From NCBI GenBank assembly GCA_003332265.1, contig QPGA01000005.1:122065-157593 (forward strand): 35,529 nucleotides of DNA, written 5' to 3'. Origin of the DNA: Candidatus Accumulibacter meliphilus. GTDB taxonomy: Bacteria; Pseudomonadota; Gammaproteobacteria; Burkholderiales; Rhodocyclaceae. Under the pieces are notes generated by a model that ran no database searches, was not told where the DNA came from, and saw only the letters and a list, made by a program, of their open reading frames with translations. Of this stretch, positions 5,881-35,529 are shown piece by piece. The position numbers and the translations under genes are program-made. Numbering within the stretch: the stretch's first letter is position 1; the number at the start of each line of letters is the position of its first letter.

Positions 5881-5973
5881 CGCCCGGCAGTCCACCTCGA
5901 AGAAGCTCAGCGCATCACGCATGCCGTAGCCGGGCGTCAGATTGGCGCTGATGGTCACCGCCCGCCGCTGACC
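5881..5973 (-). pseudogene. Fragment of an RND efflux transporter
   Basis: On the minus strand about 30 codons read GQRRAVTISANLTPGYG followed by MRDALSFFEVDCRA. This closely resembles the RAVTI-A-L-PGY-LGEAL-FLE segment found in the periplasmic part of AcrB-type RND pumps. The similarity stops abruptly on both sides, and frame shifts appear upstream. It is therefore a short relic of a gene that would normally span about 3 kb. The rest of the interval 5707-6163 shows nothing else that I recognise. Confidence 0.5.
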
Positions 5974-6163
5974 GTGGCACCATCCTTGAAGTTGATCGCA
6001 GCGCTACGGCCGGCAATCTCCGACCACCAGTGCTAAAGTTCGGCCTGGAGTTTTCCGTTGACCGATTGTCTGCGGATGGCCCGCAGGCCGCTCGGATTCT
6101 TTGTGTAGCGGTCGCTTGTATGGAGAAACCGCAAAATGAACCGGGATAGGAGAGAGCAGGACA

Positions 6164-6499: not shown

Positions 6500-6568
6500 T
6501 CGCCAAGCACGCTCGGCCAGCATGGCTCAGCTCATCGATCAGTCAGCACCGAGCACTCACACCAATAC

Positions 6569-7606: not shown

Positions 7607-7751
7607 CTTGTAGCGCGTCCCGAGCAAGGCTGGCAGATGCCACGTAGTGGTAGAATGGGCCACTTCGATCTGCCCGATCCCGAATTTTATCCGAAATGAC
7701 CCTCCTGCGTGCTGATCGCACCGCAAACCCGCAAGGCTTGAACTACTCCAG

Positions 7752-8417: not shown

Positions 8418-8437
8418 GCTGCCCGAAAGGCCTACCC

Positions 8438-9103: not shown

Positions 9104-9194
9104 CGCGCAGCACCGATCAATCGCTGATGGCGCCAGCAATATCGGCTATCATGCCGCGCCTGGAGTACCACAACACAGGACCAAGAATCCATCG

Positions 9195-10562
9195 ATGATC
9201 CGCAAGTTCATATCCCGCGTTCTCGGAAGAAAAGGCAGCGACAAGCGCGACGAACCGGCACTGATCGCCGTTGACCAGCACGGCCTGCAGCGGGAGCAGA
9301 TCAGCCGTGGCTGCCGGCAGACTGTCGAGGACTTGCAGCAGAATGGCTACCAGGCCTACATCGTCGGCGGTGCGGTTCGCGACCTGCTTGCCGGATTGAC
9401 GCCGAAAGATTTCGACGTCGCCACCAACGCCACACCGGAGCAGGTCCGCCGCTGCTTCCGTCGCTCGCGGATCATTGGCCGCCGCTTTCAGATCGTGCAC
9501 GTCAACATGGGCGCGGAAACCATCGAAGTGACCACTTTCCGCGGCCATCACGGCGAAGACGGTGCACATGGTGGCAACACGGCACAGACCGACGCGCAGG
9601 GCCGCTTGCTGCGCGACAACGTTTTTGGCAGCCAGTCGGAAGACGCCGCCCGCCGGGATTTTACGGTCAACGCGCTGTACTACGACCCCAGCTCCGAAAC
9701 CATCATCGACTACCACCACGGCGTCGCCGACCTGCAGCAGAAGACCCTGCGCATGATTGGCGATCCCAAGACGCGCTACCGCGAAGACCCGGTGCGCATG
9801 CTGCGGGCAGTGCGTCTGGCGGCCAAGATCGGGCTGGCCATCGACCCGGCGGCACGGCGGCCGATCCGCGAGATGGCTGATCTGCTCGACAACGTGCCGC
9901 CGTCGCGCCTGTTTGACGAGATGCTCAAGCTGCTCACTTGCGGGCATGCGCTGCGCTGCGTCACACGTCTGCGTGAAGAAGGGCTCCATAACGGCGTCCT
10001 GCCCATGCTCGACGTGATCCTCGAACAGCCGCGCGGCGAACGCTTCGTGGTGCTCGCCCTGGAGGCCACCGACCGGCGCGTCGAGGAAGGCAAACCGATC
10101 TCGCCGGGCTTTCTGTTCGCCACGCTGCTCTGGCATCAGGTCCTGGCCACCTGGGAGCCGCTAAAGAACGGCGGCGAACCCGCGATCCCCTCACTTTTCC
10201 TGGCCATGGACAAAGTCCTGCACGTACAGGCCGAAAAGCTCGCCATCACCCGACGCATTGCTGGCGACATCAAGGACATCTGGGCTCTGCAGCCGCGCTT
10301 CGAACAGCGCTCCGGAAAGCGAGCCTACGGCGTGCTGCAGCAGCTTCGTTTCAAGGCCGGCTACGACTTCCTGCTGCTGCGCGTCGAATCCGGCGAAGTC
10401 GAGCAGGAGATCGGCGACTGGTGGACCGAGTTTCTGCATGCCAGCGATGAAGCCCGCGCGGCGATGCTCCTGCCGGCGGCACCGGGGATGGCCAAGAAAC
10501 GCCGTCGCCGGCGCCGTCGCGCCAGCGAGGACACTGGGCAAAACCCCAACGCTGGGGAATGA
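9195..10562 (+). CDS. pcnB: Poly(A) polymerase I
   Basis: PcnB adds 3' poly(A) tails to RNA, which marks it for decay. The 455-residue protein has the nucleotidyltransferase head YIVGGAVRDLL, followed by KDFDVAT with the metal-binding D72 and D74. A long RRDFTVNALYYD segment and the RNA-binding helices follow. It ends in a strongly basic tail (KKRRRRRRRA), as PcnB proteins do. The basic tail and length argue for PcnB rather than the related CCA-adding enzyme. Its last codon overlaps the start of folK by four bases (ATGA), so the two genes are translationally coupled. Confidence 0.92.
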   Translation: MIRKFISRVLGRKGSDKRDEPALIAVDQHGLQREQISRGCRQTVEDLQQNGYQAYIVGGAVRDLLAGLTPKDFDVATNATPEQVRRCFRRSRIIGRRFQIVHVNMGAETIEVTTFRGHHGEDGAHGGNTAQTDAQGRLLRDNVFGSQSEDAARRDFTVNALYYDPSSETIIDYHHGVADLQQKTLRMIGDPKTRYREDPVRMLRAVRLAAKIGLAIDPAARRPIREMADLLDNVPPSRLFDEMLKLLTCGHALRCVTRLREEGLHNGVLPMLDVILEQPRGERFVVLALEATDRRVEEGKPISPGFLFATLLWHQVLATWEPLKNGGEPAIPSLFLAMDKVLHVQAEKLAITRRIAGDIKDIWALQPRFEQRSGKRAYGVLQQLRFKAGYDFLLLRVESGEVEQEIGDWWTEFLHASDEARAAMLLPAAPGMAKKRRRRRRRASEDTGQNPNAGE

Positions 10563-11158
10563 TTCGCGCTGACGCGGCGCTAATGGGCGCTGATCCCGCG
10601 CAGCCGGCAGAAAGAAGCGCCAAAGCCAAGCAACTGCCGCCCGCGTCGCGCACCGACAGCACAGGCGAGCATCTGGCCTACGTCGCCCTGGGCGCCAACC
10701 TGGCGGACCCTCTGGCGCAGGTCCGTGCAGCCGGTCGCGCGCTGGCCGACGTACCCGAATGCCGACTGCTGCGCCTGTCGTCGCTGTACCGCAGCGCGCC
10801 GGTGGGAAACCGCTCGATCCGCGGCCAGGCCGATTTCATCAACGCCGTCGCCGCCCTGCACACTCGCCTGACGCCGTCGCAACTGCTCGACGCCCTGTTC
10901 GCCATCGAACGTCTTTTTGGACGCCGCCGCGAGTATCACCACGCGCCACGCACCCTCGACCTCGACCTCTTGCTTTACGATGACCAGACCGTCGATAGTC
11001 AGCGGCTGCGCGTACCGCACCCGCGCATGCACCTGCGCGCTTTCGTCATCGCACCGCTGCTCGAAATCGCACCGCAGGCGCTGATCCCCGGCCGCGGCAG
11101 CGCTGCCGCCTGGCTACCGGCGGTCAGCATGCAAGGCATCGCGAGGTTGGCTGATTAA
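10559..11158 (+). CDS. folK: HPPK, folate synthesis pyrophosphokinase
   Basis: FolK (6-hydroxymethyl-7,8-dihydropterin pyrophosphokinase) transfers pyrophosphate from ATP to the pterin in folate synthesis. The catalytic core starts near residue 40 with YVALGANLADP. It has RTLDLDLLLYDD with metal ligands D134 and D136, then PHPRMHLRAFVIAPL. At 199 residues it is longer than the usual 160, because of a 38-residue Ala/Pro-rich N-terminal extension. That extension may be real or may reflect a later true start; the ATG overlapping the pcnB stop favours the long form. The stop codon lies in the first bases of repeat copy A. Confidence 0.9.
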   Translation: MIRADAALMGADPAQPAERSAKAKQLPPASRTDSTGEHLAYVALGANLADPLAQVRAAGRALADVPECRLLRLSSLYRSAPVGNRSIRGQADFINAVAALHTRLTPSQLLDALFAIERLFGRRREYHHAPRTLDLDLLLYDDQTVDSQRLRVPHPRMHLRAFVIAPLLEIAPQALIPGRGSAAAWLPAVSMQGIARLAD

Positions 11159-11220
11159 TGTAAAAGTCGCGTACGCGACTCACGAAACTCCCGTCGCCCC
11201 TTGCGCGAGAAGGGCCAGGA
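11155..11220 (-). repeat. Dispersed repeat, truncated copy A
   Basis: This copy covers only the right half of the 125-bp element and lies in the opposite orientation to copies C1, C2 and D. Its TTAA end supplies the folK stop codon. It contains a perfect 16-bp palindrome AGTCGCGTACGCGACT at 11165-11180. The rest of the element is lost where the decayed peroxidase-like fragment begins. Confidence 0.75.
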
Positions 11221-11228
11221 TCAGGCCC

Positions 11229-11369
11229 CTTCGGCAAGCGACTGATCAGGAAGAACTCGTCGTTCGCACGCATCGATGTCATGTTCGCCATGCGGTTCGA
11301 CATCGGGGAAAAGGCAGCCACGGCGCCAATGTCCCAGATGTCCGGATCGGAAAATCCGTGCTCGCGCAG
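11229..11369 (-). pseudogene. Fragment of AhpD/CMD peroxidase-like protein
   Basis: About 47 codons on the minus strand read LREHGFSDPDIWDIGAVAAF followed by SNRMANMTSMRANDEF and LISRLPK. This is the characteristic C-terminal end of peroxidase-related proteins of the carboxymuconolactone decarboxylase (AhpD-like) family. The rest of that protein, including the CxxC-type active site, is absent. Upstream the frame runs into unrelated sequence next to the gabD end, and downstream it enters repeat copy A. I read it as a decayed gene end. Confidence 0.6.
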
Positions 11370-11433
11370 GACAGTGAAATCACCGCAGCCGCCCCCCACC
11401 AGCATCGTCACCGGAGGAATTCCCGCCAACGCG

Positions 11434-12885
11434 TCAAACGGTACTGAAGCAGAGGTACTTGATCTCGAGATACTCATCAAGCCCGTGCTTCGAGCCTTCA
11501 CGGCCCAGCCCGGACTGCTTGACACCACCGAAAGGCGCGACCTCGTTCGAAATCAGGCCGGTATTGATGCCGATCATGCCGTATTCGAGTGCTTCGCCGA
11601 CGCGCAGACAACGCGCGACGTCACGCGAATAAAAGTAAGCGGCAAGGCCGAACTCGGTGTCGTTGGCCATGTGCACGGCCTCCGCCTCGTCGGCAAACCT
11701 GAACACCGGGGCGACCGGGCCAAAGGTTTCTTCTTGCGCAACGCGCATATCGCTGCTCACGTCGGCAAGTACCGTCGGTTCAAAGAAAGTGCCGCCACGT
11801 TGATGACGACTGCCGCCGGTCACCACCCGCGCGCCCTTGCGCAGCGCATCTTCGATATGCGCCTGCACCTTGCTCAAAGCAGCTTCGTCGATCAACGGCC
11901 CCTGCGTGACACCTTCGTCGCTTCCCGGTCCAACGCGCAGTGACTGCACGCGCCTGGCCAGCTTGGCGACAAAAGCGTCATAGACGCCGTCCTGAACCAG
12001 AAAACGGTTGGCGCAGACGCAGGTCTGTCCGGTATTGCGGTACTTGGCGATCAGCGCGCCTTCGACCGCCGCATCGACGTCCGCATCATCGAAAACGATG
12101 AATGGCGCGTTGCCGCCCAACTCGAGCGACAGCTTCTTGATCGTCGGCGCGCTCTGCGCCATCAGCAGGCGACCGACCTCGGTCGAGCCGGTAAACGACA
12201 GCTTGCGAATCACCGGGCTGGCGGTCAGCGTTGCCCCGATGGTCTTCGGGTCACCGGTCAGCACGTTGAACACGCCGGCCGGCAGTTCGGCGTCGTGTGC
12301 CAGCCTGGCCAGCGCCAGCGCCGTCAGCGGCGTCTGCTCGGCCGGTTTGACGACCACCGTACAACCGGCGGCAAGCGCCGGCGCCACCTTGCGGGTGATC
12401 ATCGCCAGGGGGAAGTTCCACGGCGTGATCGCCGCACAGACGCCGATCGGCTGGCGAATGGTCAACAGGCGCCGATCAGCGGCCGGACTTGGAATGCTCT
12501 CGCCATAGGCACGCTTGCCCTCTTCGGCAAACCACTCGACAAACGACGCCCCGTAAGCCACCTCCCCGCGCGCCTCGACAATCGGCTTGCCCGATTCGGC
12601 AGTCATCAACTGCGCCAGGTCCTCGGTGTTTTCAAGGATCAGGTCAAACCAGCGGCGCAAAGCCGCGGCGCGTTCCTTGGCCGTCTTTGCCCGCCACTCC
12701 GGCAGTGCGACGGCAGCCGCATCGATCGCTCGTACCGTCTCGACAGCGGTCATCAACGGCACATCGGCAATGGCTGCACCACTTGCCGGGTCAATGACGG
12801 CCAGCGTTCGGCCATCGTCGGCGGCTTCCCAGCGACCATCGATGTAGCAATCGGAGCGCAACAGGCGCGGATCGTTCAGATGCAT
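11434..12885 (-). CDS. gabD: NAD(P)-dependent succinate-semialdehyde dehydrogenase
   Basis: This aldehyde dehydrogenase most likely oxidises succinate semialdehyde to succinate, the last step of GABA breakdown. The 483-residue protein has the cofactor-binding ITPWNFPLA near 153-161, the FTGSTEVG loop at 231-238, the general base E255 in LELGGNAPF, and the catalytic cysteine C289 in NTGQTCVCANRF with a second cysteine at 291. The CVCANR pattern and overall length fit the SSADH (GabD) subfamily, including the redox-sensitive cysteine pair. Other ALDH substrates remain possible. It diverges from the NlpC/P60 gene, and no gabT or regulator lies beside it. Confidence 0.8.
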   Translation of the reverse strand: MHLNDPRLLRSDCYIDGRWEAADDGRTLAVIDPASGAAIADVPLMTAVETVRAIDAAAVALPEWRAKTAKERAAALRRWFDLILENTEDLAQLMTAESGKPIVEARGEVAYGASFVEWFAEEGKRAYGESIPSPAADRRLLTIRQPIGVCAAITPWNFPLAMITRKVAPALAAGCTVVVKPAEQTPLTALALARLAHDAELPAGVFNVLTGDPKTIGATLTASPVIRKLSFTGSTEVGRLLMAQSAPTIKKLSLELGGNAPFIVFDDADVDAAVEGALIAKYRNTGQTCVCANRFLVQDGVYDAFVAKLARRVQSLRVGPGSDEGVTQGPLIDEAALSKVQAHIEDALRKGARVVTGGSRHQRGGTFFEPTVLADVSSDMRVAQEETFGPVAPVFRFADEAEAVHMANDTEFGLAAYFYSRDVARCLRVGEALEYGMIGINTGLISNEVAPFGGVKQSGLGREGSKHGLDEYLEIKYLCFSTV

Positions 12886-23123: not shown

Positions 23124-25094
23124 TCACCACAGCTTGCGCGTATCGAGCCAGCTCACCCGTCCGGTGCGACGCTTGACTTCGTGGTACATGTGCGCGGTTC
23201 CGCCCGGGCCGTCGCCGCCACCGCCATTCCACAGACAGATGAAACGCACCTTGTCGACCCCCCAGGCCAGGGCGGTGTACAGGAGCCAGAGGTTACAGCG
23301 CTCGAAAGCATTCGCCGCTTCGCCACGCAGATCCTTTGGCAGCGTACCGAGTTCCGCCGGCATGATCCGCGGCTCCTCGGCAAGCATGCTGATCAGCGTG
23401 AAGTAGCGCTGCCGCCACTGCTCGCCGTTGCTCGCCGGCAGCACCGAGCGCTCGATGAACTCGGGTTCCTCGAAAGGGAGCATCGCTTGCAGGCGGACGC
23501 CGCGCGCCTGACAGGCTTCCAGAAACAGCAGGTCGCCGCCACTGGCGGCCTGCGCCAGCGCCAGGTCCCCTGGCCCCGCGGCGAGCTGGTCGAGCGCCTC
23601 GGCGATCTTCGCTGCCGCCAGCGCCTCCTTCTCGGCAGCAAAACGCGGCGGTTGGCGGCCGGCGGAATCGATCATGTGACCGCTGAAGAGCAGCACCTGG
23701 CGGGGCTCGAACGGCGGACTGCTGCGCTCGATCTCGCGTTCGACGATGGCCAGCGCCGCAGCCGTCTCGGCTGGCCGGAAGTCGATATCGCGCAGAAGCT
23801 GCAGCGTCTGGCGACTCGAATCGAGCGCGAACCAGTCGCCGTTGGCCGCCGCCACCATGTTCGCGTACTCCTTGCCGATACTCGCCGGCGGATTGACCAG
23901 CAAACAGAGTTCGGCGTAGCTGGCGCGCGCCCAGTAGTCCTTGCGATCGCGCTCCTGGGCAGTCAGGCTGGACCAGAGGACACCACCGACGAGGTTGTCG
24001 ATCACCGTCTGGCTGGTCTCGCCGCCACAATGCCGGCGCAGAAGTTGCAAGGTCAGCGCGTTGATCCCCGAGTAATGATGTGCCGGGTCGGCGATGAAGG
24101 CCTGGTAGTAGGGGTCAATGGCCTCGCCAAGCGCCGCATTCTCATGCTTGGCGGCAGCGTGCATCTCTGCCGGCGTCAGCCCTGGCCGGCGCCAGCGCGC
24201 CAGCCAGTTCTCCTTTTCGACGCGCCCGAGCAGTGCCCAGCATTCGGCATCGCGAGGATAGTCACGCGTCAGTTGCCGCACCCATTCGCGCGCCTCCTCG
24301 AAGCGGCCCAGGCGACCCAGGCAGACCGCTTTCTTCTCCCGGCTGGCCTTGTCGTCAGCGTCGATGGCCAGCGCCAGGTCGAACTGCTCGAGCGCCAGCT
24401 GATACTGCTTGAGCTTGAGCAAGGCGTTGCCGGCGGTATGCCTGGCTTCACGGTGCAGGGCGCGGATCGGCGTCTCGTCGGCGAGCAGCAGAATGTCGCC
24501 GGGACGGTTTTTCTGCCGCGCGATCTCCATTCGCCGATCCCAGCTGGCATGGGCATCGGAAAACTCGTTGTGCTGTTCGAGCAGCAGCTGCCGCCACTGC
24601 GGCTGTTCAAGATTGGGGATGCGCTTAAAAACGGGGCTCACCTTGCGCCGCGTCGAGCTGGCCATGCTGGCGCGCGCCATCGCCGTCAAGGCGGCACAGT
24701 CCGCGGCCAGAGTGGCCGGGTCAGGGGCTCCGTCGCGCAGCGTGTAGCGCAGCTTGCGATCGGTATAGGTGTCGAAGGGCTGGCTGGCCCGTGGCCCCTG
24801 CACCAGCACCACGCCACGCGCGCGCAGCGCGTGCCGGATACCGAGCTCATACCAGACATTGGGATTGTCCAGCGTCAGATCGGCAACCACCAGATCGGCG
24901 AGCAGCAGTTCCTGGAACATGTCATCCAGGATATCGCCGGGACGCTCCTCTTCGTCGGCCTTGAAAACTGCCATCCCGGCCGCCGTCAGGGCCGGCCAGA
25001 TGTACTCGGCGTAGACCCGATTGAAATCGATCAGCTGCCCATCGGGCCCGCGCTTGCTGCCGAAGGGCATGACGACGAAAGCGTGGGCCTTCAT
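23124..25094 (-). CDS. TIR/NDT-like, TPR and SLOG-like multidomain protein
   Basis: The 656-residue protein begins with a fold seen in TIR-like and nucleoside 2-deoxyribosyltransferase-like proteins. It has VVMPFG at 7-12 and NPNVWYELGIRHALR at 78-91, with a candidate catalytic E83. Residues about 205-290 look like TPR helices (ALEQFDLALAI, EEAREWV). The C-terminal part from about 465 resembles SLOG Rossmann domains: LLFSGHMID at 468-476, AASGGDLLFLEACQARGV at 516-533 and LPFEEPEF at 539-546. Such parts occur in bacterial conflict and death-effector systems, where the TIR-like part cleaves nucleotides and the SLOG part senses them. No signal peptide or membrane helix is seen. It is the last of four same-strand genes that include CHAT and metacaspase. 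I infer a signalling or effector role. Confidence 0.7.
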   Translation of the reverse strand: MKAHAFVVMPFGSKRGPDGQLIDFNRVYAEYIWPALTAAGMAVFKADEEERPGDILDDMFQELLLADLVVADLTLDNPNVWYELGIRHALRARGVVLVQGPRASQPFDTYTDRKLRYTLRDGAPDPATLAADCAALTAMARASMASSTRRKVSPVFKRIPNLEQPQWRQLLLEQHNEFSDAHASWDRRMEIARQKNRPGDILLLADETPIRALHREARHTAGNALLKLKQYQLALEQFDLALAIDADDKASREKKAVCLGRLGRFEEAREWVRQLTRDYPRDAECWALLGRVEKENWLARWRRPGLTPAEMHAAAKHENAALGEAIDPYYQAFIADPAHHYSGINALTLQLLRRHCGGETSQTVIDNLVGGVLWSSLTAQERDRKDYWARASYAELCLLVNPPASIGKEYANMVAAANGDWFALDSSRQTLQLLRDIDFRPAETAAALAIVEREIERSSPPFEPRQVLLFSGHMIDSAGRQPPRFAAEKEALAAAKIAEALDQLAAGPGDLALAQAASGGDLLFLEACQARGVRLQAMLPFEEPEFIERSVLPASNGEQWRQRYFTLISMLAEEPRIMPAELGTLPKDLRGEAANAFERCNLWLLYTALAWGVDKVRFICLWNGGGGDGPGGTAHMYHEVKRRTGRVSWLDTRKLW

Positions 25095-25100
25095 GCCCGT

Positions 25101-25129
25101 CTAAGCGTCATAACATGTAGAGACACGCC
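25101..25129 (+). repeat. Dispersed repeat, remnant copy E
   Basis: The first about 29 bases of the element are recognisable, in the C1 version, with roughly 20 identical positions including CTAA and GAGACAC. It lies in the short gap between the lipoprotein and the TIR/SLOG gene. It looks like an old, mutated copy cut after its left end. Confidence 0.5.
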
Positions 25130-25131
25130 AG

Positions 25132-25575
25132 TCAGCGCGCAACGACGCGGGCACCGTCACCGTGGCCCTCGACATAGACGAGCTGTCCCTTGCGCAAACC
25201 CGAGACACCGGCCTGAGTAACTGAAATCAGGACACCACTGCCGGTACGCACGACGATCTGCTGCCCGGCGACCGGTTGCTCATATTTCTTCTCGATCTCA
25301 TTACCGGCGAGCGCGCCGCCGACGCTTCCCAGCACCATCGCCACATCGCGCCCGGTACCCGCACCGATCAGGCTGCCAACCCCCAGACCGGCCAGACCAC
25401 CAACCACCGCGCCGACACCCGGATGATGATTGCTCGGCAACTGGACCTCAAGGATCTGTTCGACGACGCCGCTACGAATCGCCATTTCCCCCGCTTGCCG
25501 GCTGGCGCCGGCACAAGCCGTGAGGAAGCTGACGAGGACAAGGACCGACAGGCAAGACAGGAACTTCTGCATCAT
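25132..25575 (-). CDS. Glycine-zipper lipoprotein, SlyB-like
   Basis: The 147-residue protein has a lipoprotein signal with lipobox FLTAC (C21). A glycine zipper follows at 53-92 (GVGAVVGGLAGLGVGS and GSVGGALAG), then a small beta-like tail. This is the architecture of SlyB/Pcp outer membrane lipoproteins. I chose the first of two adjacent ATGs (25575), with AAAGGA upstream; the second at 25572 differs by one residue. It lies between the giant CHAT gene and the TIR/SLOG gene in the same direction, so it may belong to that operon or be a bystander. SlyB in other bacteria supports envelope stability under stress. Confidence 0.75.
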   Translation of the reverse strand: MMQKFLSCLSVLVLVSFLTACAGASRQAGEMAIRSGVVEQILEVQLPSNHHPGVGAVVGGLAGLGVGSLIGAGTGRDVAMVLGSVGGALAGNEIEKKYEQPVAGQQIVVRTGSGVLISVTQAGVSGLRKGQLVYVEGHGDGARVVAR

Positions 25576-25656
25576 GGCTATCCTTTCTGAACGATGGTTG
25601 ATGGAAAAATGGCTGTACACGTCACTTGCTACAAGCGGCGGAGGCGGCAAACGCCC

Positions 25657-28600
25657 CTAGCGTTTCCGCGTCGCGCGTTGACGCCCGGCACTGGCCGCTG
25701 CCTTCGACGGCAGTGCTTTCGCCAACGCCGCCGCGACCGGCGTCGCACCATGCGGGCGATCGCCTCGCTGGCATGCGCCGGGCCTGAGGCGTTCAGCAAG
25801 AGCGATCAGGCGGTCGGCCGCCAACTGCCAGCCGCCGTCACCGTGATCGTGACTTAGCGAGCGAGCGTCACAGAATCGGGAAAACAGGCAAATCTGAGCG
25901 ACCACCGAGTCGAGCTGCTTCGGCTTGAGGCAAAGAGAGGACAGCGTCTCCTGGAAAGCGCGCGTCACTTCGTCGAACGCCAGTTGGCCAACAGCTCCCG
26001 AGTGCATGAGCCGAGCATCGAGCAGGTGCTCGACGAGCAGCGACTCAGGCTCGCGCATCGCGTCCCAGAAATCGGCACTGCGTGCGTAAGCGTCGCGGGC
26101 CGCGGAACGGCAGTAACGCGCCAGGGCAATGGCCTCGCTGTCGGCGTTGGCCGCGTTGCCCTCCTCTCGCCGCTCGCCATCTGCCGGCACCAACAAAGCC
26201 TCGATCGCCAGCCGGTTGAGCGCGTTGTAGGATCGGAAAGCCGCATCGCCCGGCCGTCCCTCGCCTTGCCGGTAGAAACCAGCGCTGTCGCGCAAAGCCT
26301 GGTCCATCTGCGCCAGCGCGCCTGCACTGTCCACCTGAGCTGCTTTGCTGCCGGCTTCGGTCGCGCTTCCCGTCGCGGCGTCGGCGGCAAGCGCCCGGCG
26401 TGCAAAAACATTGGCCTTGCGCTTGGCAGCACTGCCGCGCAGTGCGCAACGTTCGCTATTGACCTGACCGCTAGCCGCCTCACCCGCCGCATGCGAGACC
26501 AGAGCGTCGAGAGCGCGCAGACGTTCGAGCGCGCTCTCGATCAACTTCAGCGCGCCGCCGTCCTTATCGTCCTTATCGTCACTTTCATCCTTCTCGCCCA
26601 TGCGCGCCTCGATATTGGCCAACTGCTCGATGTCGCGTATCGGCACCTGTCCGTCGCCGTCTTCGGACTGGATCGCGTCGAGGTAAGCCGCCCGCGCCTT
26701 GGCGAATTCACCGAGGTCCGCCCACACGCTCGCCAGCGCCGACTGTAGGGCCGGTAGGCGTAACCAGCCTGGCGGACAACGCTCCCTGAGCAAGGCCTCG
26801 ATGCTGCTCACCTGCGTGTCAAGCTCGCGCCGGGTCTGCCGCTCGCCGGCACGCGACAGCGCCGCACGGCGGCTGGACAGTTCGTCGAGCAATTCGTCCG
26901 GCGAGACATAGGCAACCGCGGCAGCGGCTTGGCCCGACAGGCGCGGTTCGGCCAGCCAACCCGGTTCGCCATAGGCCTGGTAGGCGCCCCAGGTGATGTC
27001 TTCGCGATTGGCCTGCCACACCGCCCGCCTGGCTTCGAAGACCGCCTGCCCGAAGGGGCGGCCTTCGAGCAGCAGGCTCTCGTAGAAAGCTTTGCCGAAG
27101 ATCATCGCTCCCTTGTCGTCCACCGCCCAGCCGGCAACGACCACGCAGCGCACACCGATATTGATCAACTCGCGCGCGACGCTGGCCGCCAACAGGTTGC
27201 CGTCTTGCAGCGTGCGCTCGCCGCTGTTGTCGTTTGCTCCCTTGGCGCTGCCCGTATCGACCTTGCCAAGGTGGCAGCAGCTCAGGAAAACGAGCTCGGG
27301 CACGCTTTCCATGGCGCGGATCTCGGCGGCAGTAATCAACAGACCATCGGAAAGGACGACGCCCGAACGGCGGCGGCCATCGACGTGCTGCTGATCGAAA
27401 ATGCCGTGCGCCGAGATATGCAGCAGCCGATAGGGATGCTGGTAGAGCCGTGTCAGCACGTCGGATGCGTTGCGGTCGCTGCCGATCTCGGCGACTACCT
27501 GGTAGGCAAGGCCCTGCAGGATGGCGGCCACCTGCGTAGCTTCCTCCTCTGCGCCCGGCAGCGGTGGCGGGTCGAGAGCATCGGGATGCCGCGGATCCGG
27601 AAAAGCCGCGACAAAACCTTCAACCGATGGATTGCCGACGACAAAGGCCGTGCGCTCCAGCCCCTGCCGCACCTGACGACGAAACTGCATGGCCGCAAGC
27701 TGCCGTACCACCGGGGTACGCAAGGCCAGTGGCAGTTTTTCCCCCGCACCACGCTGATCGTCGGCAAACATCAATTCCCACGGCAGGTTGGCAGTGTAGT
27801 CGTCGACCACCAGGACGATGCTCTCGAGCTGTCGTGCGGCATCCTTGAAGTCGTGCGGCACCATCAACTGGAAGAGCACGCGGCCGAAGTCCTCGCGCCA
27901 CACCGGCCTCTGGATCTGCTGGCGCACGAGTTTTTCGACCAGGCCCGGTTGCCGCTGGAGAACCACCGACTCGGCGCGCGCACGCTGGCCGACATAGAGA
28001 AAGCGTAGCCGTTCGGCGATCGCCGTGCGCTGTCGCGGCGCGCCTTGCGACGCGCCCCCTTGGCCAGAGTCGCCGGCCTTGGCGTCGTCGCACGCCGGCA
28101 GCCGAACGGCCAGGCCCTGCTCGTGGCGATCCGCGTCGGTGACGATCAGCCGTGGCCAGTAACTCGGGTTGCCGCTGTCGAACAGGCGCCGACGCAGTCC
28201 TTCGCCCTGTTCGAGCTCCGGCCAACAAACCAGCGCCACGTCGTAGCGCCGGGTCAGTTCGGCGAGCCGGTCGGGCATTCGCCGCAGCGCGTAGACGGCG
28301 GTGATCGCCGTATCCTGATAGAGCTCGACGATATCGAGGCGCGCCACGCGAATATCGAGTCGTGTCGTCTCGTAGAAACGTGCGTTGGCTTCCATGACGC
28401 CACGCAACAGCGCCTCGACAGAGGCCGCGACCGAGAGGTTCGCCGAAGAGTTGTAACCGAGCAGCAGCGCCGCCAGTGGCAGTTCGCGTTCGTCCTTGCC
28501 AAGCACGTCGATGACCTGCAGCAGGTAGCGCAGGACGCCGGCGCGCACCGCCTCGATCAGATCGCCAACGCTGAGGTTGCCATCGTAGGCGCCGAGACCG

Positions 28601-31600
28601 GTAACAATCGCGCCAGTGAGGCTGCCGCGGCGGCGCTCCTGCTCGTTGGGAACGCGCAGGACGACGCTCGCCGTGCCGCGCGGACCGGCATAAAGGCCGA
28701 GGTTGTAGCGCTGGGTGAGATCACCATCGAGCAGTTCGCTGTCGATCAGCGCCTCGGCGCCAGCAATCGGATCCTGCTCGTAGTGACCGAGCAGAACGGG
28801 TTGGGCCAGGAAGCGCAGGTCCATGGCCTTGACCTTGACCTCCAGGCGGCGCTTCGGTCGCGCCGCGACGCGACTGCGCGGCGATCCGCCGAGCAGACCG
28901 CGTGCCACGGCCTCGCCGCCGTCGAGCGTCGGCGGTCCGGCGTCGTAGGTCACCGGTAGCGGCTGCTCTTCGCCGCGCACCGCCGGCGGGCTGCTCAGCA
29001 GGGCGCCGGTCCCGCCGCTGCTCAGCAGCTCGCCAAGCGCCGGAAAGTACTCGCTGGTCGACGGCAGATCGCCATGCTTGGCCGGCAGGTAGTAGTGACT
29101 GCCGACATTGCCGATGCGCCCGGAAGCCCAGGTGACGGTGCCGTCACCCTGGCTGGTGCCGACCATTTTCAGGCGCCCTTGCACCTCGCGAATTCCGCAC
29201 GGGGTATTGCGCGCCACACCAAAGACATAGACGGCTTTGCTGGCATAGGCCTCGGGAAGCGCCGGCGTTGCCTCGCCGTCCTGTTGCCAAAGCCAGTTCG
29301 CCGCGTCCAGCTGTGACTGGTCCGGTGTCGCCGAATTGCCGTTTCCGAACCAGAAATCGAAGACTTTCGCCTGGTAGTCGACCCAGGTCTTGGCCAGCCA
29401 GAAATCCTGCTTGTCGTCGCCGCCGTCGGGCTGCCCCTGGAAGGTATCGACAAAGCCGCGCTTGGGCAGCAACTGCAGCGCGCCGCGAAAACCGGAGACG
29501 ATCTGCAGCACTTCCCGCATGTCGTGGCGGACGTCGAGACGCACCAGGGAGCGCAGCGTATCGCCCTTGCCGAGCAGGTTCTCGACCATCGAGTAGGCGC
29601 CCTGATTGGGCGTCCCGAGCATCACCAGGCGCGCACCATCGCGCGCCATCAGCGCGTCGATCACTGCACGGCGCTTGTGGATGCTGGCGCGCACCACCAG
29701 TCCGCCCATGCTGTGCGCAAGCAGGCGCACCGGCTGCGTCGTCTCGCGCAGCAAGCGATCGAGGAATTCGGCAAAGCGCTCGGCGAGCACATCCAGCGGT
29801 TGCCGCCAGTCGTAAGCGAAGGGCTCGACGCGGTGACTGGTCGACAGATACGTGCAAATGTCGCCGTAGAACATATCGAACAGCTTCTCGGCCTCGACGC
29901 CGGACTGCTCCCAGGCGATCTTGCTCAGGCCACCGCTGGCGATATCCAGCGGGTCGAACCACACCCGGTCCTGGCCATTCACCGACAGGTGCGAACCCAT
30001 CACCCCCGGCAGCACGACAAGCACCGGCAAATCGGCACGCGGCGTCTCCGGCGAGCGCGATATGCCACGCGCAGCACGCCTGCGACCGTCGCCCGCAGCC
30101 GCCTCGAGCGCGCTTACCTCGCCATCCGCGAAGGGACCCGGCAAAGCCTGGAAAGCCGTCAGCGGCAAGACCTCGCCGGCCACCAACCAGTCGCGCAGGG
30201 CAAGGCGCGTGTCGATGTTGGTGAAGTAGCGGAAATGCGAGACCTCGGCACCGCGATCGAACAACGCCCGTGCCCGCGCCTGCGGCGCAATGCCGGCAAA
30301 CATCGAGTCGCTATCGACCACCAGGTCGTTGTCGACGTTGTCGAAAAAGAGATAGTCGGTAAGCAGGACGCCGAGACGTTTGAGCAGATTGCCGCCTTCG
30401 ATGTCGCCAGCGATCACCGCCATCTCGATCCCGGCGCGCACCGGTGCGTCGCGCAAGAGACGCGCCATCGGCGAATCCGGCAACATCGCTTCGATGCCGG
30501 GAACCAGATGCGCGTTGGTGCGCTTGTGGGCGATTTCCAGCACCACCCGTTTGAAAGCCGAATAGAAGGGGTTGCCGAAAAAGAACGGCACCTGCCCGAT
30601 CAGGGTCAGCATCCCGGACAGGAAGAGGTCCAGGTTGCCGCTGGCCAGCCGCGTTCCCTGCGCCGGACTGGCCACCCGCACGTAGCGCTGCACGACCAGC
30701 TTCCTGTCCGCCAGCACCCTGGACAGCTGGCGCAGTTGCTCGCGCTGCTCGGCGTGCGCCGAGTCGACTTCGCGACGCACGTCCTGCGCGGCAGCTTCGC
30801 TCTCGTAGGCGTCACCAGTGCCCGGCAGATCGGCTTTGTAGAGCTCGATCAGCGGGTCGAAATCCTGCACGCAGAGCAGGTCGGCAACCAGGCCGCCGCG
30901 CGAGTGCGAGACCAGGTTGAGCTGCAGGCCGTCAGGCAACATCGCCAGCAGCTCCAGGGCGTTCTCGATCGGGCTCGCGGAGAGCGTGCGGTGCTCGTAG
31001 GCGTAGATACCGCCGCTGAAATGGCGCTGCAAGACGCTCCACAGATCGCGCTCGTCGAGCGGCAGGTCGCCAAAACTGCCCACGGTATTGGAACCAGTGC
31101 CATGCACGAAAACCAGCACCGGCAGCTTCTCGGCAGCGGCGCGCTGTAGCTCGCGCTGCGCGCGCGCCAGCGCCTTGCTGTCTTGCGCCTCGGTGGCACG
31201 GCGTCCGCCGTCCCAGCAGTAAACGCCGGTCGGCCGACCCAGCCGCGCCTCGATCGCCCACATCAGCGCCTTGGTGCCCAGCCCGCTGACCCCCAGCTCG
31301 GCGAGTTCACCATCACCGCCACCTTTGCCCAACTCGCCAAGCTTCTTCTTCGCCGCCTCGATGATTTCGTCGCTGGCGGTCCCTACCGCCAGCGCAAAGA
31401 CTTTGCTGATCAGGCCGCCGACCGCGTCCCCGAGCAGCCCGCGCGTGGCTGCTCCTTCGCCGCTCAGCTGATCGAACAGAATCTCCCCGTCGCTACCGAT
31501 CAGCTCGGGTCGGCTGCGCTCCAGGGAAGCCTTGAGCTTGCCGGCCGAAGTGATGAGAACACCGCCGTCGGCGAGTTCGATGACCAGCACCTCATCGCCC

Positions 31601-31809
31601 TGCGCCGCATACTGCTGGGCACTGACGCTGGCCCCGGCAGCGCGCACCGCCGCACCGACTTCAAAGCTCGCCCGCGTCTTCAGGTAGCCGGCCGGCAGGA
31701 AAGGATCCTCCGGCTCACCCGCCGACCGTCGAACGTTCTGCAGCAGTGCCGGCAACTGCTTCTCGTCGCTCTGCCGACCAGTGAAGTTGAGAGTAGTGGT
31801 GTCAGCCAT
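25657..31809 (-). CDS. Giant fusion: two alpha/beta-hydrolases plus CHAT protease
   Basis: The 2050-residue protein has three visible enzyme domains (numbering from the start at 31809). Hydrolase 1 (about 228-540) has FVHGTGSN, nucleophile S303 in SHSRGG, acid D495 and H525. Hydrolase 2 (about 595-920) is LCAT/PGAP1-like with PGVMGS, S700 in AHSMGG, D889 in GDGTV and H912. A linker domain with LLGHYEQDPIAGAEALID lies near 1006-1023. The CHAT caspase-fold domain (about 1260-1620) has H1468 in HISAHG and C1512 in LSCCHLG. A helical, TPR-like tail follows with an acidic DESDDKDDKD linker. I chose ATG 31809 since GGAGG lies five bases before it. No signal peptide is seen. I infer a cytoplasmic protease-lipase effector; the metacaspase gene lies 104 bases upstream. 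Confidence 0.8.
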   Translation of the reverse strand: MADTTTLNFTGRQSDEKQLPALLQNVRRSAGEPEDPFLPAGYLKTRASFEVGAAVRAAGASVSAQQYAAQGDEVLVIELADGGVLITSAGKLKASLERSRPELIGSDGEILFDQLSGEGAATRGLLGDAVGGLISKVFALAVGTASDEIIEAAKKKLGELGKGGGDGELAELGVSGLGTKALMWAIEARLGRPTGVYCWDGGRRATEAQDSKALARAQRELQRAAAEKLPVLVFVHGTGSNTVGSFGDLPLDERDLWSVLQRHFSGGIYAYEHRTLSASPIENALELLAMLPDGLQLNLVSHSRGGLVADLLCVQDFDPLIELYKADLPGTGDAYESEAAAQDVRREVDSAHAEQREQLRQLSRVLADRKLVVQRYVRVASPAQGTRLASGNLDLFLSGMLTLIGQVPFFFGNPFYSAFKRVVLEIAHKRTNAHLVPGIEAMLPDSPMARLLRDAPVRAGIEMAVIAGDIEGGNLLKRLGVLLTDYLFFDNVDNDLVVDSDSMFAGIAPQARARALFDRGAEVSHFRYFTNIDTRLALRDWLVAGEVLPLTAFQALPGPFADGEVSALEAAAGDGRRRAARGISRSPETPRADLPVLVVLPGVMGSHLSVNGQDRVWFDPLDIASGGLSKIAWEQSGVEAEKLFDMFYGDICTYLSTSHRVEPFAYDWRQPLDVLAERFAEFLDRLLRETTQPVRLLAHSMGGLVVRASIHKRRAVIDALMARDGARLVMLGTPNQGAYSMVENLLGKGDTLRSLVRLDVRHDMREVLQIVSGFRGALQLLPKRGFVDTFQGQPDGGDDKQDFWLAKTWVDYQAKVFDFWFGNGNSATPDQSQLDAANWLWQQDGEATPALPEAYASKAVYVFGVARNTPCGIREVQGRLKMVGTSQGDGTVTWASGRIGNVGSHYYLPAKHGDLPSTSEYFPALGELLSSGGTGALLSSPPAVRGEEQPLPVTYDAGPPTLDGGEAVARGLLGGSPRSRVAARPKRRLEVKVKAMDLRFLAQPVLLGHYEQDPIAGAEALIDSELLDGDLTQRYNLGLYAGPRGTASVVLRVPNEQERRRGSLTGAIVTGLGAYDGNLSVGDLIEAVRAGVLRYLLQVIDVLGKDERELPLAALLLGYNSSANLSVAASVEALLRGVMEANARFYETTRLDIRVARLDIVELYQDTAITAVYALRRMPDRLAELTRRYDVALVCWPELEQGEGLRRRLFDSGNPSYWPRLIVTDADRHEQGLAVRLPACDDAKAGDSGQGGASQGAPRQRTAIAERLRFLYVGQRARAESVVLQRQPGLVEKLVRQQIQRPVWREDFGRVLFQLMVPHDFKDAARQLESIVLVVDDYTANLPWELMFADDQRGAGEKLPLALRTPVVRQLAAMQFRRQVRQGLERTAFVVGNPSVEGFVAAFPDPRHPDALDPPPLPGAEEEATQVAAILQGLAYQVVAEIGSDRNASDVLTRLYQHPYRLLHISAHGIFDQQHVDGRRRSGVVLSDGLLITAAEIRAMESVPELVFLSCCHLGKVDTGSAKGANDNSGERTLQDGNLLAASVARELINIGVRCVVVAGWAVDDKGAMIFGKAFYESLLLEGRPFGQAVFEARRAVWQANREDITWGAYQAYGEPGWLAEPRLSGQAAAAVAYVSPDELLDELSSRRAALSRAGERQTRRELDTQVSSIEALLRERCPPGWLRLPALQSALASVWADLGEFAKARAAYLDAIQSEDGDGQVPIRDIEQLANIEARMGEKDESDDKDDKDGGALKLIESALERLRALDALVSHAAGEAASGQVNSERCALRGSAAKRKANVFARRALAADAATGSATEAGSKAAQVDSAGALAQMDQALRDSAGFYRQGEGRPGDAAFRSYNALNRLAIEALLVPADGERREEGNAANADSEAIALARYCRSAARDAYARSADFWDAMREPESLLVEHLLDARLMHSGAVGQLAFDEVTRAFQETLSSLCLKPKQLDSVVAQICLFSRFCDARSLSHDHGDGGWQLAADRLIALAERLRPGACQRGDRPHGATPVAAALAKALPSKAAASAGRQRATRKR

Positions 31810-31913
31810 CATCGCCTCCATCGAGTTCTTGCCACGCCAGATCCTGTAGCGCCCTGGGTCGGCTCAGGCCGGCCTGTCACGCCTGGACATTTGGACTGCC
31901 TACAGAGCGGCCA

Positions 31914-32753
31914 TCAAGTGAAAATCTGGCGCTTGCACGCATCCTCGCTGCCAAAAATCTGCGGGCTTTGCGGATACGACGCCGACGGCAGGTAGGCCGG
32001 GCTGATCGCCGCATGCCACTGCGCGTAAGTGGCGTTGGCTGGCAGCTGTTTGAGCGCCTTCAGCGCGTAATAGCTGAACGCGCCACAAGGACGGCCCGCG
32101 ATGCGTGCATCGTAGCTGAAATTGTTCGGCCCCTCCTTGCAGCCCGCCAGCAGCAGATCGCCCATCATTTGCGACAGCGCGCCGGTAAAAGGAGAGCCTC
32201 CGGTCACCGGCACCGCCGTCAGCGACTGGCCGCTGATGCCGTGCGGCAACTTGTTGGCGGCCAGCCAGTTGCCCATCGGCAAAAACCGGGGACGCGGCGC
32301 ATCGTCGGCGTCCGGATCGGCAGCCGCGGCACGGGTCACGGTACCCGAATGGCAACTGTCGGAGATCAACAGCAAGCGCACACCCGCCTTGCGCGCCGAA
32401 AACAGGGTGTTGATCTCGTCATCGATCAGCGCACCCCCACCGGTCTGAATGTCGTAGGGGCAAAGCGCCTCGTCGAGGCCGTCAATCTCGTCGCCGTTGG
32501 TGTCGGGGACATAGGTCCCGTGTCCGGAATAGGTAATTACCAGCACATCGCCACTGACCCCGCCGGCAATCAGCGACTGGATGGCGTTGAACATCGCTGC
32601 CTTGGTGGCCTGGCTGTCGATCAGCTTGCTGACCGCAAAGCCACGCCCCGCGAGCTCGGCAGCCCAATCGTTGGCATCGTTGACACAACCACTGAGATCC
32701 ATGTGAGTACCGGGGTAGTTGTTGATCCCCATACAAAGCGCGCGCTTGCTCAT
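31914..32753 (-). CDS. Type I-like metacaspase (peptidase C14)
   Basis: This 279-residue protein consists almost only of a caspase-like p20 domain. It has the start ALCMGINNYPG, histidine H78 in TYSGHGTYV, and the catalytic cysteine C134 in ISDSCHSGTV. An acidic GDEIDGLDEALCPYD lies between them, as in calcium-dependent metacaspases that cut after Arg or Lys. There is no death-fold or transmembrane partner in the chain, so targeting may come from another protein. GGAGGCAGTC precedes the ATG as a ribosome binding site. It is the first of four genes on this strand and probably drives the operon from the region with heptamer repeats upstream (32805-32846). Confidence 0.88.
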   Translation of the reverse strand: MSKRALCMGINNYPGTHMDLSGCVNDANDWAAELAGRGFAVSKLIDSQATKAAMFNAIQSLIAGGVSGDVLVITYSGHGTYVPDTNGDEIDGLDEALCPYDIQTGGGALIDDEINTLFSARKAGVRLLLISDSCHSGTVTRAAAADPDADDAPRPRFLPMGNWLAANKLPHGISGQSLTAVPVTGGSPFTGALSQMMGDLLLAGCKEGPNNFSYDARIAGRPCGAFSYYALKALKQLPANATYAQWHAAISPAYLPSASYPQSPQIFGSEDACKRQIFT

Positions 32754-33255: not shown

Positions 33256-35529
33256 TCAGGTCACCATGAAGTCGAGGTTGCTCAGCGCCAGTCCGCCGCT
33301 CAGGGTGGCGAACTGCACCGCAACGCCCGCTCCGTTGCCGTCGGCGTCGTAGTACAGCGCCCCTGAGCTGCTGTTGTAGATCAGGTAGTCGTCGGCATCG
33401 GCGGCGCTGATGACGCCCGCGCCAGAGCGGAACGAGCCGGCCGCCAGGGTGCCGGAAGTGATCAGCGAAGTGAAGATCGCGTTCTCCAGCTCGACGGTGT
33501 CGTCGAACACGTTGTAGTCGCTGATCGTGTCGCGGTTGGCGAGGGCGTCGAACAGGGTGTCGAAGCGGAATCGGTCGGCGCCCGCGCCGCCGCTCAGCGT
33601 GTCGTTACCGAGCCCACCGACCACAAGGTCGTTGCCTGCCCCGCCACTGAGGCGGTTGTCGCCGACGTTGCCACTCAGACTGTCGTTGTAGTTGCTGCCG
33701 GTCAGCCTTTCGATACTGATCAGGGTATCGGAACCCGAGCCGCCGGTGGCCTGGTCACCGGCGATGGCGAGGCTGACGGTCACGCCGGCAGTGGCATAGG
33801 CGTAGGAAACGGTGTCCGCACCGCTGCCGCCATCGAGTAAGTTGTTGCCAGCGCCTGCATAGAGCGTGTTGGCCAGGGAATTGCCAGTAGCATTGGCCGC
33901 TGCGCTCGACAGGATGCGCAGGTTCTCGACGTTGTCCGGCAGCGTATAGGCAGAAAGGTAGCTGTAAACCGTGTCGTTGCCACCGGCCATCGGCTCGGTG
34001 TTGGTTTCACTCACCAGGTCAGCGACGTTGTCGACGTAGTAGGTGTCGGAGCCATCGCCACCGATCAGCGTATCGACACCGGCACCTCCGTTGAGGACGT
34101 TGGCCAGACTGTCGCCCGTCAGGCGATCATTGTAGTTGCTCCCGGTGAGTCGTTCGATATTGAGCAGAGTGTCGAAACCGGAACCGCCGGTGGCCTGCGC
34201 AAGACTGCTGGCCAGGCTGACGGCAACGCCGGCTGCCGCGTAAGCGTAGGACACGGTATCGGTGCCACCGCCGCCGTCGAGAACGTTGTCCCCAGCGCCG
34301 GCATAGAGCGTGTTGGCGAGAGCATTCCCCGAACCGTTGGCAGTCCCCACGGCAAGAATGCGCAGGTTCTCGACGTTGGCCGGCAGCGCGTAGTCAGCCA
34401 GAGTGCTGTACACAGTGTCGTTGCCCCCGGCGGTCAGGTCGGCGTTGGTTTCGCTCACCAGATCACTGAGGTTGTCGACGTAGTAGCTATCCGAGCCGTC
34501 GCCGCCGATCAGGGTATCGGCCCCCGCACCACCATCCAGCGTATCGTTACCGGCGCCACCGTCCAGCCAATTGGCGACACCGTCGCCGGTGAGGCGGTCG
34601 TTATACGCGCTGCCCACGAGATTCTCAATGCTGATCAGGGTGTCGGACCCGGAACCGCCGGTCGCGTGCGCCGCGTTGCTGGCAAGATTGACCGCCACGG
34701 CGGCCGTGGCAAGGGCGTAAGACACGGTGTCAAGGCCCGCGCCACCATCCAGCACGTTGTTGCCCGCACTGGCGAAAAGCGTGTTGTCGAGGCTGTTTCC
34801 GGTACCATCAGCCGCGCCGGTGGCAACGAGGCGCAGGGTCTCCACGTTGGCGGTCAGGGTGTAGGCGGCGAGACTGCTGTAGACGGTGTCAGCGCCACCG
34901 CTCGCCAGAAGCGCGTTGGTCTCAATGACGAGGTCGCCAGCGTTGTCGACGTAGTAGGTGTCGGAGCCGTCGCCGCCGACCAGGGTATCGGCTCCGGCAC
35001 TGCCGTCCAGGAGGTTGGCGGCGCTGTTGCCGGTGAGGCTGTCGTTATGGCTGCTGCCGGTGAGGTTCTCGATGCCGATCAGGGTGTCGGTGCCAGCACC
35101 GCCGGTCGCCTGCGCCGCGCCAGAAGCAAGACTGACAGTTACTCCGGAAGGGGCATTGGTGTAGGAAGCTGTGTCGTCGCCGCTACCGCCGTTGAGCGTG
35201 TCACTGCCCGGACCTCCGCTCAGCAGGTCGTTGCCGACGCCACCGTTCAGAACGTCGTCACCCGCACCGCCGTCGAGCGTGTCGTTGCCTTCGTTGCCAC
35301 TGATGGTGTCGTTGCCGCCGTCACCATAGACCTTGTCGTCCCATTTGCTGAAGCTGCCAAAACTGTTCGCGCCGTCACCCAGGTGCACGCCGAGCGTGGC
35401 GATCAGTTGCTGCGCACCCATGACCTGGGCGTCGCCAAAGGTGATCTGGCTGACGATCTGGTCGTTGTAGTACTGCGCGCGGTAGAAGTAGTCGGCGAGT
35501 GTCAGGACGTCGCCACCCGCAAACTGCAG
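33256..35529 (-). CDS. RTX calcium-binding repeat protein, C-terminal part
   Basis: This is the C-terminal part of a large secreted RTX protein; the frame stays open to the right edge, so the start lies outside. An in-frame ATG at 35421 is probably internal, since codons upstream read like RTX-linked sequence (GDVLTLADYFYRAQYYNDQ). Counting from that ATG, residues 30-72 are classical GGxGxDxLx nonapeptides that bind calcium. Three long modules follow from residue 153, each starting SDxYYVDN and ending in a nonapeptide pair. The last about 110 residues (DRFRFDT to LSNLDFMVT) match the type I secretion C-terminal signal. No protease or lipase part lies inside the window. Secretion genes (ABC, MFP, TolC) are not present here. 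Confidence 0.85.
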   Translation of the reverse strand: MQFAGGDVLTLADYFYRAQYYNDQIVSQITFGDAQVMGAQQLIATLGVHLGDGANSFGSFSKWDDKVYGDGGNDTISGNEGNDTLDGGAGDDVLNGGVGNDLLSGGPGSDTLNGGSGDDTASYTNAPSGVTVSLASGAAQATGGAGTDTLIGIENLTGSSHNDSLTGNSAANLLDGSAGADTLVGGDGSDTYYVDNAGDLVIETNALLASGGADTVYSSLAAYTLTANVETLRLVATGAADGTGNSLDNTLFASAGNNVLDGGAGLDTVSYALATAAVAVNLASNAAHATGGSGSDTLISIENLVGSAYNDRLTGDGVANWLDGGAGNDTLDGGAGADTLIGGDGSDSYYVDNLSDLVSETNADLTAGGNDTVYSTLADYALPANVENLRILAVGTANGSGNALANTLYAGAGDNVLDGGGGTDTVSYAYAAAGVAVSLASSLAQATGGSGFDTLLNIERLTGSNYNDRLTGDSLANVLNGGAGVDTLIGGDGSDTYYVDNVADLVSETNTEPMAGGNDTVYSYLSAYTLPDNVENLRILSSAAANATGNSLANTLYAGAGNNLLDGGSGADTVSYAYATAGVTVSLAIAGDQATGGSGSDTLISIERLTGSNYNDSLSGNVGDNRLSGGAGNDLVVGGLGNDTLSGGAGADRFRFDTLFDALANRDTISDYNVFDDTVELENAIFTSLITSGTLAAGSFRSGAGVISAADADDYLIYNSSSGALYYDADGNGAGVAVQFATLSGGLALSNLDFMVT
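33633..34965 (-). repeat. Three long modules inside the RTX gene
   Basis: The modules start at 34965, 34494 and 34050 (reading on the minus strand). Module 1 is 157 codons, module 2 is 148, and module 3 covers about 140 before it changes. Module 1 has one extra nine-residue RTX unit. Each contains ENLRIL-like, NxLDGGxGxDTVSYA and NIExLTGSxYNDxLTG segments. The identity between modules points to duplication or recombination. Confidence 0.8.

Follow-up and report, generated by a model that had tools for sequence, protein, structure and literature searches.

What use might a bacterium make of a caspase-fold protease, a giant protein that carries a second such protease with two lipase-like hydrolases, and a protein probably directed at nucleotides, when all are encoded together? 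The question is raised by a stretch of 35,529 nucleotides from Candidatus Accumulibacter meliphilus (contig QPGA01000005.1, positions 122,065 to 157,593), here termed the window, whose own positions supply the coordinates below except where a relative's locus is named. Its minus strand carries four clustered genes, for a metacaspase (31914..32753), a giant effector of 2054 residues (25657..31821), a glycine-zipper lipoprotein (25132..25575) and a TPR-S protein of 656 residues (23124..25094), and all four open reading frames (ORFs) were found open at the coordinates that a preliminary description of the DNA had given beforehand. The answer favored here is that the locus is probably a TPR-S-type conflict or regulated-death system, in which a predicted nucleotide- or NAD-derived signal would release a combined protease–lipase effector. 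Judged by its domains, the set looks like a modified form of self-destruct or immune systems already known from bacteria, and a putative macro-clan domain in the giant, related to the N-terminal domain of M17 aminopeptidases (M17-N), is the best new lead.

A conserved core of three genes

From sequence comparison the core unit is made up of three genes, those for the metacaspase, the giant and the TPR-S protein, and is conserved in Accumulibacter. A giant is present in 40 of 121 genomes (the window's own and relatives). One of some type is found in 24 of 27 congeners, being of the close type in 17 of these, and with the window the close-type set comprises 18 Accumulibacter genomes. Of the genomes in that set that could be tested, 16 of 17 have the caspase gene next to the giant gene and 13 of 14 have the TPR-S gene there, with G005 the sole exception for both. 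Since the contig of G012 begins within the giant, the caspase side of that genome is left out of the count; left out of the TPR-S count are G001, G012 and G023, whose contigs end at, in or just past the giant, and G003, whose giant is a fragment. The giant of the window shares 96% identity with the one on NZ_SPMY01000053. Eleven named loci were found with the window's giant, 8 of them from Accumulibacter.

The wider comparison involves 45 giant loci of relatives, the window excluded, many of which are closely related and so not independent, and four of which are on plasmids. With the window's caspase as query, a caspase gene is within 6 kb of the giant, and always on its strand, in 27 of the 45; the same searches yield none in 20 control segments of 14 kb each (280 kb in total) from 20 of the same genomes. 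Co-occurrence of the genes exceeds chance, and the recurrence elsewhere on which the preliminary description had staked its proposal beforehand was found. A caspase, TPR-S, SLOG or TIR partner is recognised in 31 of the 45 loci. Three of these, L069, L071 and L074, supplied the TIR queries, with the consequence that the TIR gene of L081 is the only one found in a non-query locus. Genes of the relatives were called with a picker based on GC content by codon position, which recovers the window genes from 15 kb on; picking of the longest ORF, which misplaced genes in this GC-rich DNA, was set aside.

Intergenic gaps are mostly short. In L056 and L052 there is a 4-bp overlap between the start of the TPR-S gene and the stop of the giant, and in L051 a gap of 1.8 kb between the two; in the distant loci L073 and L077 a TPR-S gene is also in the gene row of the giant, with gene order different. 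Cluster flanks fall into several groups between which similarity was undetected. In the window the cluster has aconitase as a neighbor; in G019, G011 and G013 the two are on different contigs, and in the single-contig G016 about 1.6 Mb separate aconitase from the giant. The ratio of nonsynonymous to synonymous substitution rates (dN/dS) is 0.07–0.17 in six comparisons of the three core genes, with 0.08 for aconitase.

The giant effector

Pfam matches of the giant are to CHAT (1.7e-32), DUF7379 (8.2e-31) and LCAT (3e-5), which bears out the two lipase-like hydrolases and, together with the metacaspase, the two caspase-fold proteases of the preliminary description. Conservation of active sites was read from alignments that include fragment rows, with seven loci that duplicate others left out. 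The first alpha/beta-hydrolase (DUF7379; 30142..31134, minus strand like the other features of the giant, borders approximate) has its nucleophile, Ser307 in SHSRGG, in 41 of 45 rows, the others being three gaps and one Gly. For the second, LCAT/PGAP1-like hydrolase (28987..30030, borders again approximate), Asp893 in GDGTV and His916 are both present in 42 of 45 rows (three gaps), and the Ser704 motif in 46 rows, with the window, reads AHSMGG in 39, AHSAGG in two, VHSMGG in one and AHGAGG in one, with three gaps. His1472 and Cys1516 of the CHAT protease (26968..27888) are each present in 40 of 45 rows (five gaps).

A domain overlooked by the preliminary description occupies 28222..28851 (giant residues 991 to about 1200), its first part being homologous to Peptidase_M17_N. 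A PDB profile search with it gives just two sequences at E<=1, both cytosol/leucyl aminopeptidases (3jru at 5e-5, 7y1s at 0.32). The Pfam M17_N model is matched at E<=1 by 9 of 33 members, best 1.7e-4, the window's copy not being among the nine, and an hhalign comparison with a profile built from 16 aminopeptidase N-domains reaches 88% over 79 residues, as against 0.1–0.2% for three control profiles. The M17 catalytic domain was not matched in the giant (Pfam, E<=1). It appears, then, that the giant carries an orphan leucine-aminopeptidase N-domain; such domains are assigned by Pfam to the Macro clan, according to one account (PeerJ 2019, PMC6500376).

Towards its end the giant has a TPR-S-like tail (26206..26706), which scores 20.7 bits against PF20308 in the window, below the cut-off of 27.6, and is above that cut-off in the relatives L073 (29.8 bits) and L070 (35.0). 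TPR-S or TPR-S-like scaffolds are accordingly present in two of the three core proteins. A structure model of residues 991–2054 has a mean predicted local distance difference test score (pLDDT) of 82.9 and a predicted TM-score (pTM) of 0.64. Foldseek places the Craspase TPR-CHAT chains 7y84_C at rank 4 (E 1.2e-3) and 8d9f_A at rank 10 (2.5e-3), both with low TM-scores; among the matches listed for this model and that of the TPR-S protein, TPR superhelices dominate.

The TPR-S protein

The 656-residue protein passes the curated cut-off for PF20308 comfortably (24048..24407, minus strand; 1e-20, 74.6 bits versus 27.6) and also has a MAP3K_TRAF_bd match (1.1e-5, 25.1 bits with a cut-off of 24.1). 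In its AlphaFold2 model (mean pLDDT 89.8) alpha/beta ends flank a helical middle; the Foldseek matches listed did not resolve the folds of the N- and C-terminal ends.

With respect to the N-terminal domain (24600..25094, minus strand), a profile of 11 sequences searched against the PDB gives 12 sequences at E<=1, and all 12 are of the DNPH1/Rcl family, each match being weak (best 0.034). Members of that family are 2'-deoxynucleoside 5'-phosphate N-hydrolases, and the catalytic Glu of their YELG motif aligns with the Glu of NVWYELG in the three alignments examined. This residue, Glu83, is present in 23 of 32 rows, the remaining nine being gaps in an alignment with many fragments. The weak but uniform matches suggest that the domain is closest to the DNPH1/Rcl deoxyribohydrolases (DRHyd). 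It is the part that had been proposed as a TIR/deoxyribosyltransferase-like fold; no Pfam TIR was found at E<=1 in the cluster proteins of the window.

The C-terminal domain (23127..23723, minus strand) is putatively SLOG-like, and exists as a stand-alone gene as well. Four of 14 members match YAcAr/SLOG (YspA/cpYpsA-related) at E<=1, best 1.8e-4, and to that extent the proposal of a SLOG-like fold stands; the window's own copy alone gave no match in the same search, and a PDB profile search with the domain led to unrelated proteins (best E 0.054).

Other forms of the protein are worth recording. In G009 (L048:13240-14853) it is matched as two pieces with the DRHyd part incomplete. Two more TPR-S proteins above the cut-off are encoded in the genome of the window: at L086:7524-11873 an 866-residue protein with TPR-S and patatin adjoins a 571-residue protein with a DRHyd-like N-terminal part and TPR, and at L085:4819-8790 a TPR-S protein with a MAP3K TRAF-binding match (1.3e-46) adjoins an 801-residue protein with a weak AAA match.

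Metacaspase and lipoprotein

The metacaspase matches Pfam Peptidase_C14 (6.3e-21), its nearest solved relative by sequence being 3bij (4.6e-29). Of its dyad, His78 is present in 26 of 27 aligned rows (one gap) and Cys134 in all 27. Against the EACC1-caspase model NF047832 it scores 30.8 bits, below the cut-off of 140. An NCBIfam scan, done with the four cluster proteins alone, gave sub-threshold matches only. No defined PADLOC system was matched by the four, the matches being a generic caspase and a weak TIR (2.8e-5).

The lipoprotein gene, for which there is a Pfam glycine-zipper match, is an ORF of 25132-25650 whose likely true start is 25575, with AGAAAGGA directly upstream. It was found in just five other genomes (G001, G009, G012, G017 and, in part, G015), on which ground it is rejected as a component of the system; its dN/dS is 0.18. 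It is probably an incidental passenger, so that of the four-gene set put forward in the preliminary description three genes recur and the fourth does not.

Genes beside distant giants and other neighbors

Beyond the close type, canonical TIR genes are 174 bp (L071), 53 bp (L074) and -4 bp (L081) from a giant, and 4 kb away in L069. A patatin phospholipase gene is beside the giant in L073 and a second, recognised by similarity, in L077; stand-alone SLOG-like genes are near giants, at up to 4.5 kb, in L069, L074, L075 and L137. On an Ensifer plasmid (L173) an nSTAND1 NTPase gene is two upstream of the giant and a gene for a periplasmic-binding protein is also present; the NTPase (with propeller-like matches), binding protein and giant there form a row (2410-12815) where the plasmid table lists no gene. 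The surroundings of the giant on an Azotobacter plasmid include restriction-modification, Fic, recombinase and transposase genes; no such genes were seen around the giant in the two Paracoccus plasmid regions examined. Immediately upstream of the Paracoccus giants are proteins of about 1,090 residues (L171:4276-7521 and L172:4169-7453), for which Pfam at 0.01 gives nothing beyond a solute-binding match in L172.

Some arrangements lack a giant altogether. A TPR-S gene without a nearby giant occurs in L126–L130, and in two of these, L127 (7599-12280) and L128 (7066-11496), it is full-length, a TIR gene lies 1.0–1.2 kb away, and the 17 kb examined contain no giant. L136:6964-10416 has a row of stand-alone SLOG-like, patatin and TPR-S/patatin-like genes, and the 15 kb examined there gave no giant match. 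A cluster neighbor in G015 (L047:1375-2547) matches the PADLOC models LmuA, Avs1a and RTasMBL. In the window itself, a gene for an RTX calcium-binding repeat protein (33256-35529) is upstream of the caspase, its frame still open at the window end; a DJ-1/PfpI gene is among the Pfam-matching neighbors, and 2 of the 10 flank ORFs scanned have no Pfam match.

Relation to known systems

TPR-S was reportedly described by Burroughs and Aravind in 2020. In TPR-S conflict systems a nucleotide- or NAD-cleaving domain is coupled to it and effector genes, of the peptidase and lipase kinds, are alongside; TPR-S itself is predicted to bind an NAD-derived signal. The likeness here is in the architecture of a putative DRHyd/TIR domain, TPR-S and SLOG with an ASK/MAP3K-like region, and in the CHAT/hydrolase giant and caspase genes that sit in the row of the TPR-S gene. 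What differs is the concentration of two hydrolases, M17-N, CHAT and a TPR-S-like tail in one effector of 2054 residues, plus a metacaspase.

A comparison with the TPR-CHAT (Csx29) of Craspase, type III-E CRISPR, is prompted by the low-TM-score structural matches and by the combination of a CHAT protease with TPR. In Craspase TPR-CHAT the TPR precedes CHAT, whereas in the giant it comes after. No counterpart of Cas7-11 (gRAMP), which exceeds 1000 residues, was found: apart from the giant the longest ORFs of the window do not exceed 930 residues, and no CRISPR-associated Pfam match was found among the 16 window proteins scanned or the relatives' proteins scanned.

With type IV Thoeris, where a TIR signal activates a caspase-like protease (PMC12847820), the window shares a predicted nucleotide-cleaving enzyme encoded next to a caspase, and in L071, L074 and L081 a TIR gene is next to the giant. 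However, the window has a putative DRHyd instead of a canonical TIR and extra CHAT and lipase domains. The type IV effector is caspase-like and activated by N7-cADPR; a caspase gene is present in the window. The VMAP/EACC1 conflict systems similarly pair an alpha/beta-hydrolase with a caspase, a VMAP protein with a caspase being reported always to have a neighboring alpha/beta-hydrolase gene (eLife 2020, PMC7159879), but no MoxR or vWA match was found among the window proteins scanned. TIR, caspase and alpha/beta-hydrolase are also among the domains fused to a single adaptor domain (eLife 2021, PMC8195603). Literature searches, whose coverage leaves out most subscription journals, found no title or abstract start describing this gene set and no paper joining TPR-S, TIR and phage; the papers that some of them listed contain no mention of TPR-S. 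The initial statement that no such system had been described may nevertheless be too strong, given that TPR-S is a named Pfam family and the pairing of caspase and alpha/beta-hydrolase is published.

Proposed mechanism and alternatives

The mechanism envisaged would start with invasion or severe stress, upon which the DRHyd domain of the 656-residue protein, or TIR in some relatives, would cleave a nucleotide or NAD. The product might be bound by the SLOG and TPR-S parts and by the TPR-S-like tail of the giant, perhaps by its macro-clan M17-N domain too; the metacaspase and CHAT proteases would then be switched on, proteolysis would unleash the two lipase-like domains, and damage to or death of the cell would protect its neighbors in the floc. 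The scheme first proposed, in which a nucleotide or NAD step leads through a protease to lipid hydrolases, is in keeping with the domain content, with the conservation of active sites and with the TIR, patatin and STAND genes found beside some distant giants; a role for the lipoprotein and the enrichment in defence islands that was named as a check are not supported. A bolder version makes the giant itself the receptor, with M17-N and the TPR-S-like tail binding an ADP-ribose- or deoxyribose-phosphate-type product of the DRHyd/TIR enzyme and a single polypeptide then delivering proteolysis (by CHAT, with the metacaspase) and lipid hydrolysis. This version is speculative and on present indications unlikely.

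Several results weigh against a conflict system. For defence genes, a random 130 of 156 neighbor proteins from 20 giant loci, the caspase, giant, TPR-S and lipoprotein genes removed and the TIR genes kept, was compared at 1e-10 with 130 proteins drawn at random from the 185 that 20 control segments of these genomes encode. The neighbors matched 13 PADLOC families and the controls 63 (families, not distinct proteins), many of the control matches listed being redundant models of Jet genes. There is in this comparison no sign of enrichment near giants, and defence-island enrichment was rejected. No invader sensor was identified. The surroundings in the window are housekeeping in character, with Pfam matches to aconitase, a FemAB-like protein, a Na/H exchanger, aldehyde dehydrogenase, poly(A) polymerase, Hda, a TrkA-type channel and semialdehyde dehydrogenase, and no Sigma-70-like promoters were found (0.9 expected); predicted terminators number 4, with 6.6 expected. 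Partners are sometimes missing: 14 of the 45 giant loci have no recognised partner within 6 kb (one is on a short contig and four are plasmid loci), and at E<=1e-30 there is no caspase match anywhere in G012 (88% complete) and no TPR-S-gene match anywhere in G003 (72% complete). To these is added the tendency of the giant to be inherited with its host. Its identity tracks that of aconitase (Spearman 0.92, n=16), as that of the caspase does less closely (0.77, n=15), in correlations confined to close-type giants and, for the caspase and TPR-S protein, to genomes that have one; the fragmentary giant of G003 (65%), other-type giants, distant caspase paralogues, the TPR-S values of G004, G010, G012 and G026 and the caspase values of G010, G018, G022 and G026 were left out. 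That the divergence of the giant follows that of aconitase suggests mostly vertical inheritance of the giant within the close type.

Such inheritance, with purifying selection, occurrence of a giant in most congeners, housekeeping surroundings and rarity outside the genus (4 of 398 genomes sampled across the phylum including the window's own, so 3 of 397 others), would suit a lineage-level programmed-death or floc-regulation module, where the same chemistry has a metabolic stress trigger in place of phage. We regard this as rather improbable. Outside the genus the giant is sporadic. Plasmids carry it in places, with matches in 8 of 72,556 plasmid records that all fall short of 80% coverage of the query, and TIR, STAND or patatin genes, whose presence alongside is typical of conflict systems, are beside some distant giants. 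That the host forms aggregates also brings allorecognition or kin discrimination inside dense flocs to mind, but among the Pfam matches of the core proteins there is no secretion or hypervariable recognition domain, with no signal-peptide or variability test made, and this explanation seems very unlikely. The alternative is raised for related systems of multicellular bacteria in a paper that names Accumulibacter as a dense-microcolony host of multiple related diversity-generating retroelements (PMC10907252), a parallel that serves the conflict reading as well.

A separate issue is whether the TPR-S gene belongs to the unit at all, or is a system of its own that frequently ends up beside a unit of caspase and giant. 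Its identity tracks that of aconitase poorly (Spearman 0.39, n=14, p=0.17), a further point against a conflict system, and that of the giant little better (rank correlation 0.48), so a more mobile history is possible. Near-full-length copies (E<=1e-30, N-terminal-only and SLOG-only matches not counted) occur in 22 genomes and adjoin the giant in 15 of the 20 testable, G001 and G023 being cut by contig ends; in G004, G010, G021, G026 and G088 the gene is away from the giant, which again weighs on the same side, and the giant-free copies of L126–L130, two of them near a TIR gene, point the same way. However, the stop/start overlap in L056 and L052 and the shared, differently ordered gene row in L073 and L077 speak for partnership, and independence is judged the less plausible option by a good way. 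The least probable explanation of all is a constitutive set of envelope-lipid or protein-processing enzymes without immune role. For it there are the catalytic residues kept by both hydrolases and the lipoprotein gene lying between the others; against it are the failure of that gene to be conserved with them, the accessory distribution of the giant and a DRHyd, TPR-S, SLOG and CHAT content.

Implications

If the locus is a TPR-S-type conflict or regulated-death system, it would join in one place the production of a nucleotide signal, a sensor region related to the ASK kinases of animals (as the MAP3K TRAF-binding match indicates), and also two caspase-fold proteases and two lipases, and would provide a compact, testable model for the coupling of proteolytic and membrane-lipid death outputs. 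Were the giant in addition the receptor, one multi-weapon protein would merge a macro-type receptor logic, that of type II Thoeris, with the caspase output of type IV. More generally, M17-N domains may have a role outside peptidases, as candidate ligand receptors.

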